Below the pieces are notes generated by a model that made no database searches, had not been told where the DNA came from, and saw only the letters and a list, made by a program, of their open reading frames with translations. Of a stretch of DNA of 64,000 bases, positions 7,788-10,655 are shown in pieces; position 1 is the stretch's first letter, and every line of letters starts with the position of its first letter. Location of the stretch: contig JAEPNV010000004.1 of assembly GCA_017643215.1 (NCBI GenBank), positions 310,001 through 374,000 of the forward strand. Direction: 5' to 3'. This DNA comes from Roseibium sp. GTDB lineage: Bacteria; Pseudomonadota; Alphaproteobacteria; Rhizobiales; Stappiaceae. Both the position numbers and the translations under genes were made by a program.

Positions 7788-8396
7788 ATGCTGCTGCAGT
7801 TTCTTGACTATGTTGGCGTTGCGGTCTTTGCCATATCCGGCGCAATCGTCGCTTCGCGGCGCCAACTCGATTTCATCGCGTTTTTGTTCTTCGCAACGCT
7901 GACCGGCATTGGCGGTGGCACATTGCGCGACCTCATTCTGGGCGTGCCGGTCTTTTGGATCGACTCCGAAGGCTATGTGCTGGTGTGTCTCGGCGTGTGC
8001 GTGGCAATGTGGTTTTTCGCCGCCCGCGTTGAACGGTTCGGAAAACCGCTGAGATGGGCGGATGCCGTCGGTTTGTCGGCCTATTCGGTCATGGGGGCGG
8101 CGAAGGCGCTCGCCGTCGGCGATACGGCGCTGGTTGCCGTGCTGATGGGCGTTGCGACAGCCACGTTTGGCGGGATCCTGCGCGACACCATCGCCGGGGA
8201 ACCTTCAGCGATCACGAAACCGGAGATTTACGTCAGTGCCGCCTTTGCGGGCGCGGGCACTTATGTTGCGCTGGCGATGGTTGGCGTTGATGGCTGGGGT
8301 GCTGCGGCGGCCGCAATGCTCTTGGCGCTGGTTTTGCGCGGCGGGGCGATTGCGCGCGGTTGGACGCTGCCGGGCTATGGTAGCAAGCGTTCGTGA
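7788..8396 (+). CDS. TRIC-type trimeric intracellular cation channel family protein (UPF0126, YicG-like)
   Basis: A 202-residue integral membrane protein made of two homologous three-helix repeats. The glycine/arginine motifs of the family are both visible: GIGGGTLRDLILG in the first repeat and TFGGILRDTIAGE in the second. Prokaryotic TRIC proteins form trimeric cation channels (K+/Na+), though physiological roles are poorly known. The ATG at 7788 begins directly with the first helix (LLQFLDYVGVAVFAISGA). It is separated from grpE by 77 bp and may be cotranscribed. Confidence 0.85.
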   Translation: MLLQFLDYVGVAVFAISGAIVASRRQLDFIAFLFFATLTGIGGGTLRDLILGVPVFWIDSEGYVLVCLGVCVAMWFFAARVERFGKPLRWADAVGLSAYSVMGAAKALAVGDTALVAVLMGVATATFGGILRDTIAGEPSAITKPEIYVSAAFAGAGTYVALAMVGVDGWGAAAAAMLLALVLRGGAIARGWTLPGYGSKRS

Positions 8397-8550
8397 ATAA
8401 AAAACGTCCGATGGGTCTTGAGTGATTATAAAAAGGACTGCTGGCCGTCAGGAGCGGGCAACCAACAGCATCCGGGGCCGCACCGTCCGTTTCAGTCGGC
8501 GCGCAAGTTTCGGGCGCGGCGCCCCCAAGATGTGTCAATCAATGCCAGGT

Positions 8551-8637
8551 TCACGTCAGTCCGAACGCGGCGGATAGGCCGATGATCGCGATCGCGAGCA
8601 TAGGCAAACTGGCCCAGTAGGCCATTGTCGTCAGCAT
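8551..8637 (-). CDS. 28-residue membrane micropeptide (copy 1 of a pair)
   Basis: A 29-codon ORF beginning with ATG at 8637 and ending with TGA at 8551-8553. It is preceded by a strong Shine-Dalgarno GGAGG, five bases before the start. The peptide (MLTTMAYWASLPML, then a run of A/I/L/G residues, ending AAFGLT) is almost entirely one hydrophobic helix. It aligns without gaps to the 28-residue peptide at 8822-8908: identical at M1, T4, Y7, A9-S10-L11-P12, I18, S22-A23 and G26-L27, or 12 of 28 positions. The shared length, start signal and residues make this a real gene family rather than chance. Function is unknown; single-helix micropeptides often are small subunits or modulators of membrane complexes. 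Confidence 0.72.
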   Translation of the reverse strand: MLTTMAYWASLPMLAIAIIGLSAAFGLT

Positions 8638-8769
8638 GTCGACCTCCAGAAACGCTTGTCTGTGACATGCCCCCCGTCTGCAAGGAAATATGGGGTCCTG
8701 GACCGGCAGTTTGGAGGAACAACCGTTTCACGTTTGTGTGTGGGGGATTGTGCCGGTCTTCAGGCAATG

Positions 8770-8798
8770 AAAAAGCCGGCTCAAGGGCCGGCTCTTTT
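8770..8798 (-). terminator. Bidirectional rho-independent terminator between the two micropeptide genes
   Basis: Stem AGCCGGC (8774-8780) and GCCGGCT (8787-8793) with a 6-base loop, flanked by A and T runs on both strands. Read on the minus strand it ends in TTTTT and would terminate the micropeptide transcript starting near 8908. On the plus strand it ends CTTTT. The outer flanks also pair (ATGAAAA with TTTTCAT), giving a long hairpin. Confidence 0.8.
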
Positions 8799-8821
8799 CA
8801 TGGGATTTCGGTCGGTTCGTC

Positions 8822-8908
8822 CTAGATGAGGCCATTTACAGCCGACATGGAAACAATCACCAAAAAGATGGCTGGCAGACTGGCCGCATAACAATAGGTC
8901 CTGATCAT
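8822..8908 (-). CDS. 28-residue membrane micropeptide (copy 2 of a pair)
   Basis: ATG at 8908, TAG at 8822-8824, again exactly 29 codons. The Shine-Dalgarno GGAGG(AG) sits five bases upstream. The peptide starts MIRTYCYAASLPAIF and continues as a hydrophobic helix ending SAVNGLI. It shares the Y-x-ASLP block and the C-terminal SA-x2-GL pattern with the peptide encoded at 8551-8637. A strong terminator follows immediately (8770-8798), so this is a self-contained short transcription unit, or the tail of the ornithine-cyclodeaminase-like transcript, whose stop is 108 bp upstream. No characterised family is recognised. Confidence 0.72.
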   Translation of the reverse strand: MIRTYCYAASLPAIFLVIVSMSAVNGLI

Positions 8909-8971
8909 CTTCTCCTCCAATCGCCGGAATGTGATGAGGTTCACTTTATCAAAATGTCGCCAGAAAACCGT

Positions 8972-9012
8972 GATGCGCAACACAATTGTGTTTTTTGGTG
9001 GTAGATGCGCAA
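8972..9012. promoter_or_regulatory. Direct-repeat and palindrome cluster upstream of micropeptide copy 2
   Basis: Two direct copies of GATGCGCAA (8972-8980 and 9004-9012) flank a perfect palindrome AACACAATTGTGTT (8979-8992). It lies 64-104 bp upstream of the micropeptide start and just after the stop of the minus-strand OCD-like gene. It could be an operator for the micropeptide promoter; no regulator can be named. Confidence 0.4.
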
Positions 9013-9016
9013 TTTT

Positions 9017-9928
9017 CTAACTCTTGAGAAAAACATGACCGGCCGTTGCCATGTCTGCGATCCCGGTCGCCGGGCCGGCGGCAAACAAAGTCCGCTGCCC
9101 GTAGAACCTCCGCCCGGCTTTGTGGCCCTGTGCCAAGTCCCGCAAGTCGGCTGCGATTTCATCCGCTTCGCCTAGGCCGTGCCGCGTCCGATCGCCGACG
9201 AACAACCGGCATTCCTCTGAAACGCTTGAAGGCAGGGCCCCGGTCGCTCCCAGAAGGTCGATGTGAATTCCAACAGGCAGATCGTTGGCCGCGCCGGCAA
9301 GGGCATCGACGGATGCCGCAAGCACCATATCGGCGCCTTCGGCGGCGGCGCCAATATCATCCGTCCGTCCGACTGTGATGGCGTTGGGCGCTTCCAGGGC
9401 GCACAGCTTCTTCTCAAGATCCGGGCTGCCCCCGGCAAGCAGGATGGAGCGCAGGCTCCGCACGGTCGCGTGTGCGGCAACGAGATCAACGACAAGCGGA
9501 TGATCGCCGATGATTAGAAGGCGTTCCGAGTCTTCGCGGGCAAGATAGGATGCGGCGAGTGCATGTGTGGCGCAACTGCTCCAGCGGGTCAGGCGAACGC
9601 CGTCGAGAACGGCGATTGGATGCGCCGTCGCGCCGGAAAACAAGAGATAGACGCTGGAACCCGGGCCCCCGCCAGAGGCAGGCCCTGGTTGTTCGGGGCC
9701 GATCGCGAGCCGGCATCCGATGTAGCCGCGGTTGGTGTGGCCCTGGCGCTCGAAATCCGTCCAGGACGGGATGGCGCTCATGGTCAGGGGAACCGTCTCC
9801 GGCCGGGCGATGGTGAATGTGTCCGGCGCAGGGGCAATCAAGGCTGACCGGTAGGTCCGGCGCAAGGTTTCAATGAGATCTCGATGAGAGAGGGCGGTGT
9901 CGATCTGGTCGGCGGAGATCACACGCAT
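9017..9928 (-). CDS. Ornithine cyclodeaminase / mu-crystallin family NAD(P)-dependent protein
   Basis: A protein of about 303 residues of the OCD/mu-crystallin superfamily, whose members are ornithine cyclodeaminases, alanine dehydrogenases or ketimine reductases. The N-terminal substrate domain (RVISADQIDTALSHRDLIETLRRTYR) is followed by a Rossmann domain (LLIIGDHPLVVDLVAAH) and a C-terminal region with LGATGALPSSVSEE and VGDRTRHGLGEADEIA, typical of the family. The ATG at 9928 is chosen; a TTG two codons upstream is also possible. It lies 12 bp after lapA on the same strand and is probably the last gene of the sppA-ihfB-lapA operon. The substrate cannot be read from sequence. Confidence 0.82.
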   Translation of the reverse strand: MRVISADQIDTALSHRDLIETLRRTYRSALIAPAPDTFTIARPETVPLTMSAIPSWTDFERQGHTNRGYIGCRLAIGPEQPGPASGGGPGSSVYLLFSGATAHPIAVLDGVRLTRWSSCATHALAASYLAREDSERLLIIGDHPLVVDLVAAHATVRSLRSILLAGGSPDLEKKLCALEAPNAITVGRTDDIGAAAEGADMVLAASVDALAGAANDLPVGIHIDLLGATGALPSSVSEECRLFVGDRTRHGLGEADEIAADLRDLAQGHKAGRRFYGQRTLFAAGPATGIADMATAGHVFLKS

Positions 9929-9940
9929 TGACAAAGTGCT

Positions 9941-10312
9941 TCAGGCAGCCCGCCGATCACCCGGGCCGGTCAGTCGGGGCCGGTTCGGATCCATGCCGTC
10001 AAGAGCGTCCTCTGAGCGTTCGCGCAGTTGATCAGCTTCGCGATGCCACCGGTCCGCTTCCCGGCGTTTTGTTCGTGCTTCCTTGCGCCATTTGCCCTGT
10101 TTGGCCCAGGCGCCAATGCCCCCCAGCACAATGCCCACGGCAAGGCTGGCGAAAATGACCCAGAACAAGGGGATATCCGCAATGGTCAGGCGCGGGTCCT
10201 GCGGATCAAACGGATTGAGGGAGAGGGAAACCGTGTGCCGGTTCGCGACGGACAAAGGCACAAGAAAAACGGCCACGGCAAGAAGGATGATGTTCTTGAC
10301 GAAACGGGTCAA
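9941..10312 (-). CDS. LapA-domain (DUF1049) inner-membrane protein
   Basis: A small membrane protein with two hydrophobic helices (IILLAVAVFLVPLSVANR and a second from DIPLFWVIFASL to IGAWAKQ) and a charged cytoplasmic tail (KWRKEARTKRREADRWHREADQLRER), as in the lipopolysaccharide assembly protein A domain family. The TTG at 10312 has a GGAG Shine-Dalgarno at optimal spacing and gives a compact protein starting just before the first helix. A longer form starting at 10378 would overlap ihfB. sppA-ihfB-lapA is a recurrent alphaproteobacterial gene order. Confidence 0.8.
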   Translation of the reverse strand: MTRFVKNIILLAVAVFLVPLSVANRHTVSLSLNPFDPQDPRLTIADIPLFWVIFASLAVGIVLGGIGAWAKQGKWRKEARTKRREADRWHREADQLRERSEDALDGMDPNRPRLTGPGDRRAA

Positions 10313-10355
10313 AGCGGTCTCCTGGATCTCTACCTGTCGGCTTTCGCACTTAATG

Positions 10356-10655
10356 TCAGCTGTCGCCGTGGTCGACACCGCCGTTGAGGCGCAGGCGCAT
10401 TTCTTTGCCTGTCTTAAAAAAGGGGACGAATTTTTCTTCTACTTCAACCTTTTGGCCTGTTCGCGGGTTGCGGCCAATCCGAGCCGGGCGGTTTTTGACC
10501 GAAAACGCGCCAAAGCCGCGCAGTTCGACACGATCGCCGCGCATGAGCGCCTCTGTGATTTCATCGAGGATGGCGTTGACGATGTTCTCGACATCGCGCT
10601 GATATAAATGCGGATTTTGTTCCGCGATATGCTGCACCAGCTCCGATTTTATCAT
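10356..10655 (-). CDS. ihfB: Integration host factor subunit beta
   Basis: A 99-residue DNA-bending protein that pairs with IHF-alpha. The fold is complete: N-terminal helices ([15 protein letters not shown]), the beta arm with the minor-groove motif GRNPRTG, and the C-terminal helix ending [14 protein letters not shown]. The ATG at 10655 overlaps the sppA stop (ATGA), so translation is coupled to sppA. An upstream in-frame start at 10709 would lie inside sppA and add residues foreign to the family. Confidence 0.96.

Follow-up and report, generated by a model that had tools for sequence, protein, structure and literature searches.

The window, by which we mean the whole 64,000-nucleotide stretch of Roseibium sp. 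DNA that was analyzed, contains two very short open reading frames (ORFs) on its minus strand, between an OCD-family gene and a convergent glycine-transporter gene. The locus comprises the following features.

7788..8396, plus strand: Gly_transporter gene (PF03458), convergent, which bounds the locus
8551..8637, minus strand: micropeptide gene copy 1, 28 aa, MLTTMAYWASLPMLAIAIIGLSAAFGLT, on the far side of the terminator-like hairpin
8643..8647, minus strand: GGAGG Shine-Dalgarno of copy 1, five bases before the ATG
about 8771..8796, minus strand: terminator-like hairpin 3' of copy 2, with an AGCCGGC stem and a T-run
8822..8908, minus strand: micropeptide gene copy 2, 28 aa, MIRTYCYAASLPAIFLVIVSMSAVNGLI, which adjoins the OCD-family gene
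8914..8918, minus strand: GGAGG Shine-Dalgarno of copy 2, five bases before the ATG
9017..9934, minus strand: OCD/mu-crystallin family gene, 305 aa (PF02423, E 1.1e-11), directly upstream of copy 2
9941..10378, minus strand: lapA-like gene (PF06305), upstream neighbour and synteny anchor

Along the minus strand, the order is ihfB (a name that we take from the sequence and place of the gene), lapA, OCD, copy 2, hairpin and copy 1, facing the glycine-transporter gene. Copy 2 begins 108 bases past the OCD stop codon. An earlier sequence-only reading had described the two 29-codon ORFs and their GGAGG motifs, and both proved to be exactly as described. It had also claimed that the products share 12 of 28 residues without gaps while their DNA has diverged. 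We obtained the same residue count, with a DNA identity of 0.49 (84 bases). When Met1 is left aside, 11 of 27 residues are identical, whereas shuffles of one copy gave a mean of 2.5 (sd 1.5) and reached at least 11 in 1 of 200,000.

To locate the same site in relatives we used lapA as an anchor, which is independent of peptide similarity and is present in 87/87 family genomes. The site was taken from 80 of 86 relatives (44/44 other genus members and 36/42 other family members) and all short ORFs in it were scored. A syntenic orthologue with the consensus MLTTLAYSASLPAIALGLIYYVSATSGLVY lies after lapA-(OCD) in 35 of the 44 other genus genomes, in the same direction and once per genome. The gene is kept at the same chromosomal site in most Roseibium genomes examined, and copy 2 occupies the position that the single copy has in relatives. 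The same place was also matched in many genus members by single-sequence searches of 101 genomes. Whole-genome profile searching of the genus was positive in 36 of 45 genomes, including that of the window, and none of the genus matches contains an internal stop. Conservation in relatives and unbroken ORFs, on which the sequence-only reading had made its case depend, are both borne out. Two weak partial matches (G001, E 0.026, and G004, E 0.027; profile positions 11-28 and 12-28) are read as chance. The scores of the window copies in these profile searches arise by construction, their own sequences being in the profile. The independent test is a profile from 20 relatives excluding both, on which copies 1 and 2 score 30.7 and 25.6 bits; none of 2000 shuffles of either peptide reached its real score.

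We compared synonymous and non-synonymous changes, as the sequence-only reading had proposed, in 11 disjoint species pairs, which were picked on the tree by eye to have non-overlapping paths. There are 96.5 synonymous versus 34.5 non-synonymous changes, for 295 versus 656 sites, which gives a pN/pS of 0.16 (binomial p 6e-24, in a test that treats changes as independent). Thirty-two of the 35 orthologues have 30 codons, with 28 distinct sequences among them, and pN is below pS in all 378 pairs of these. Codons vary at 17/30 first, 10/30 second and 28/30 third positions. Ungapped identity among the 32 orthologues is 0.77 in the ORF and 0.68 at -20..0, falling to 0.34 and 0.29 further upstream and to 0.30 after the ORF, so that DNA similarity collapses beyond the ORF and the ribosome-binding site. 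AAGGA/GGAG purine-rich sites were read by eye shortly before the ATG in the 35 relatives. These comparisons argue strongly for purifying selection on the family. Since the amino acids are kept while codons vary, and the DNA is conserved just at the ORF and ribosome-binding site, what is under selection is a protein rather than a conserved RNA.

Within the window, copy 1 against the G025 form gives pN 0.24 and pS 0.73. Copy 2 gives pN 0.46 and pS 0.72 against copy 1, and pN 0.38 and pS 0.71 against the G014 form, with synonymous sites near saturation in both comparisons; by these values, the case for selection is weaker for copy 2 than for the family. The earlier claim of a duplicated, selected family therefore stands for the selected family. 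As for the duplication, the tandem pair was seen in the window's genome only among the 45 genus genomes, and every other carrier has a single copy. ORFs of 28 codons are frequent by chance, and the two in the window could in principle be unrelated products of it. However, the orthologues, the selection, the shuffles and the profile scores obtained without the window sequences all contradict this reading, which we find barely credible. As judged from these sequence comparisons, both window ORFs are real genes.

With a scan that lets stem T count towards the tail, a terminator was found within 150 nt past the peptide stop in 27/35 relatives versus 5/700 mononucleotide shuffles. The gap that separates the OCD or lapA gene from the peptide holds a terminator in 1 of 37 cases, window included (in G021). 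This gap measures 91-157 bases in 33 cases and 323-408 bases in the other four, all of which are without OCD. Because the terminator mostly comes after the peptide and rarely in the gap upstream, the peptide gene would be a last cistron, and the simplest reading is that it ends an ihfB-lapA-(OCD) operon. The hairpin that the sequence-only reading had placed between the copies was recovered: it folds better on the minus strand than its shuffled surroundings (z -3.3) and passes the same terminator scan as the relatives. A stock scan with another rule reports it for the plus strand alone, and its count of 1 is no higher than the shuffle mean of 1.1. For copy 1, the terminator scan found no terminator within 150 nt downstream. 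A crude scan found no sigma-70-like promoter site in 8300-9200, and there is no Rfam match in 8000-9500.

A very short ORF with a strong ribosome-binding site and a hairpin after it could also be a leader peptide or the translated part of a regulatory RNA, for which translation would matter and not the peptide. However, the hairpin has the look of an ordinary terminator, and the first window-homologous gene found beyond it, here as in most relatives, is the convergent glycine-transporter gene, so that no downstream target is evident. The conservation of amino acids with varying codons also speaks against this reading, which we regard as very unlikely.

The gene is absent in 8 or 9 of the 45 genus members, depending on how G016 is counted. 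There is no such ORF at the site in G036, G043, G009, G027, G030, G038, G022 and G015. On a tree of five neighbouring proteins, drawn without G001, G011 and G355 (sequence lacking), the absences occupy at least two parts of the genus: G036 and G043 are near the window's species, and the rest lie in one clade. With this scatter, the absences more likely reflect gene loss than a single late gain. Support is 0.3 at the node where G025 and G018 join the clade that contains most non-carriers.

Divergent forms of the peptide were found in three genomes of two lineages (G014; G018 and G025). On a profile from which they were left out, they score 17.9-30.7 bits, and 0/2000 shuffles of each do as well. 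In a peptide tree, too short to date the duplication, copy 2 (PEP2) groups with G014 (bootstrap 55). At the same site, G016 has an ORF of 29 hydrophobic residues (MFKTLVMFMALPSLLSAGVAIVALQQALA; L180:1970-2056 in lapA-sense orientation) with GAGGAG and a terminator. On a leave-out profile it scores 1.1 bits, and 519/2000 of its own shuffles do as well; this ORF was a row of alignment A2, so its score in the Stappiaceae profile search arises by construction. It is a positional candidate to which the sequence score gives no support, possibly a far-drifted orthologue, and our counts by sequence exclude it. Among 23 named loci with profile matches, 20 are labelled Roseibium or Labrenzia; the others are Stappia sp. 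BW2, Rhodobacterales bacterium BW5 and Alphaproteobacteria bacterium AO1-B. In seven genus members (L150, L159, L168, L169, L174, L183 and L185), the peptide and the glycine-transporter gene are separated by roughly 1.2 to 3.3 kb of additional DNA.

Outside the genus, profile searches yielded no convincing relative in 42 other Stappiaceae genomes, in an order sample of 297 genomes or in a class sample of 385 genomes, both samples including the window's genome. In Stappiaceae, a match at E 0.019 lies in a 207-aa frame and was rejected; a second one, in G029, has E 0.044. Some match at E <= 0.5 was obtained in 97 of the 297 order genomes, and the best one outside the genus (E 0.0016) is a 13-residue piece of a 326-aa frame. 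The best class match (E 1.7e-4) lies in an 83-aa frame and was rejected on reading. Five other class matches were at E <= 0.01 when this one is counted with them, the remaining four lying in frames of 265-479 aa (three) and of 44 aa (one). At present sensitivity the family looks limited to one genus, with the reservation that a peptide drifted as far as that of G016 would escape, as the G016 one itself did.

The window peptides have no Pfam or NCBIfam family up to E 1. All 22 rows of alignment A1 were searched up to E 10 in PHROGs, NCBIfam and Pfam, and every Pfam or NCBIfam match for which a bit score was given falls short of the cut-off. The best PHROGs match has E 0.16. In NCBIfam, the best are PRK07375 (antiporter subunit C, E 0.045) and TIGR02808 (E 0.094), in one row each and, for TIGR02808, below the cut-off. 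In Pfam, DUF3188 (PF11384) matches four rows over about 19 helix residues, at best with E 0.0017 and 18.3 bits against a cut-off of 24.6; TNFR_16_TM matches two rows (E 0.035) and DUF2374 (PF09574) one row (E 0.079). In this last case, residues 3-29 of the G042 peptide align with profile positions 10-35 of 42 and score 13.3 bits against a cut-off of 27, and none of the 45 genus genomes has a DUF2374 match over the cut-off. DUF2374/TIGR02808 is a small-protein family found near nap genes in vibrios. Among solved structures, the single match (E 2.8) was read as chance. In the open-access library searched, we found nothing on this peptide.

The consensus peptide has no charged residue. K, R, D and E are all missing from 20 of the 22 distinct main-clade peptides, the other two carrying an arginine at position 3; PEP2, G025 and G018 also have R3, and G016 has K3. 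AlphaFold2 gives one helix over residues 2-25 (mean pLDDT 87, pTM 0.42, 18 rows), and hydropathy maxima over 19 residues are 1.6-2.2 in six forms, the consensus value of 1.62 being modest for a membrane helix. The 28-30 residue product is thus predicted to be a single hydrophobic helix. In the 22 rows of A1, which left out the G021/G035 form with F at 11, the invariant residues are M1, T4, Y7, A9, S10, L11, P12, G27 and L28. With the divergent forms included, just M1, T4, L11 and P12 are invariant, and Y7 nearly so. Residues 20 and 24-26 vary most, and the variable residues show no helix-face pattern (100-degree periodicity, p 0.96).

The sequence evidence places these genes in a new orphan family of a known kind, the small membrane proteins, real and selected and found in one genus. 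A very small gene with strong selection evidence, in a well-sampled genus, has no match above cut-off in the libraries searched. YohP, AcrZ, CydX, MgtS and other bacterial small membrane proteins of fewer than 50 residues are of the same size class and have one helix. The Roseibium peptide is set apart from these four by description: it occurs in one genus, is nearly free of charge and has no evident partner gene adjoining. In Sinorhizobium meliloti, ribosome profiling uncovered short ORFs missing from annotation, among which SEP6 and SEP16 are order-conserved with a predicted transmembrane helix (PMC10117765). These are the same kind of gene, with translation evidence, whereas the Roseibium peptide is known by evolutionary evidence alone.

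Being short and hydrophobic, present as two tandem copies in the window and narrow in taxonomic range, the peptide might also be the toxin of a type I toxin-antitoxin system, silenced by an antisense RNA and duplicated in tandem as in some known loci. Several observations do not fit. The site is fixed, and every carrier except the window's genome has a single copy; little DNA is conserved outside the ORF and the ribosome-binding site, where an antisense RNA would need some, and third codon positions inside the ORF are free. The lack of an Rfam match and of a promoter-like site in the intervals given above (the latter by a crude scan) points the same way. Moreover, in most membrane type I toxins the C-terminal part is positively charged, with IbsC, ShoB and DinQ named as exceptions (PMC8309996), whereas this part of the micropeptide is uncharged in all forms seen. 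We consider a toxin quite unlikely. Both the toxin and the leader peptide fit worse than the two readings that follow, a subunit of a larger protein or a self-acting peptide like YohP.

The most likely reading, for which we see belief and doubt in about equal measure, makes the peptide an accessory subunit or modulator that crosses the inner membrane once and packs against a larger membrane protein. The gene would be translated from the operon mRNA, and the 28-30 residue product would insert in the inner membrane as one almost charge-free helix (predicted residues 2-25). This helix would pack against the transmembrane part of the larger protein and tune its stability or activity. The T4 to P12 block (A6, Y7, A9-S10, P12) and G27-L28 would supply contact or positioning residues, while variable residues 15-16, 20-21 and 24-26 would face lipid. 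The two diverged window copies may serve two partners or two conditions. Some known small membrane proteins bind a large membrane protein, as do AcrZ with AcrB (PMC7267776) and YohP (PMC12719787). We favour a partner-bound subunit because T4-P12 hardly varies in the main clade, a constancy that a merely hydrophobic anchor should not need. Counting against it, no partner was found, some of the residues that the main clade keeps are replaced in the divergent forms, and the 8 or 9 genus members described above do without the gene. A one-sided contact would also predict a helix-face pattern in the variable residues, and its absence counts against the subunit reading.

The main rival is a membrane-active stress peptide of the YohP type, whose helix would self-associate and, when abundant, lower the membrane potential as a metabolic brake with no partner protein. 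YohP is reported to have a single transmembrane domain, to dimerize via a glycine motif and to reduce the proton motive force (PMC12719787). The size, the predicted single helix and the near absence of charge fit such a peptide, and mostly small residues recur in the main clade at positions 9, 13, 17, 23 and 27. These small residues are not kept in all divergent forms, however, G014 having V at 9 and 17 and PEP2 V at 17, and the place behind ihfB-lapA would suggest growth-linked rather than stress expression. We regard self-action of this type as unlikely, though with a weight that has to be taken seriously.

A more specific form of the subunit reading, which we put forward tentatively and with more doubt than belief, is that the peptide was invented by the genus: it would have arisen at the base of Roseibium or close to it, been fixed behind ihfB-lapA as the last cistron, become the dedicated subunit of one conserved membrane machine, and been duplicated in the window's lineage, where the copies specialized. 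If so, this would be a young gene turned selected membrane component. One genus, one site, natural absences and a duplication make a tractable case for the origin and partner-finding of very short membrane proteins. Should the peptide bind a large membrane protein, the partner could be found by a pull-down from one tagged strain.

An OCD match is absent at the site in 8 of 45 genus genomes, namely G009, G015 and G027 and five that carry the peptide (G011, G012, G014, G021 and G035). As these five have the peptide without OCD at the site, the peptide does not depend on the OCD enzyme, and the neighbouring gene was ruled out as partner. The OCD gene diverges fast, with 42-52% identity to the window's copy within the genus versus 57-85% for lapA. 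Nitrate reductase was examined on account of the weak TIGR02808 match. We detected napA in 24/37 peptide carriers versus 1/8 others (Fisher p 0.015, with kinship ignored and G016 counted as a carrier); the window's genome, with its two peptide copies, yielded no napA match, and this candidate was rejected.

Cytochrome bd (PF01654) is present in 45/45 genus genomes, including those without the peptide, and because it is found in all of them its presence cannot test a partnership. A CydX-like subunit would be expected next to cydAB, whereas the Roseibium peptide lies elsewhere in the three genomes compared: the window's genome has its cytochrome bd matches on contigs 9 and 5 but its peptides on contig 37, and in G034 and G041 cytochrome bd and the peptide are megabases apart on one contig. 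In the window's genome, a second match to cytochrome bd subunit I (G000:C5:12606-13898) is free of in-frame stops, and the other (G000:C9:95462-96964) holds three, 1 TAG and 2 TAA.
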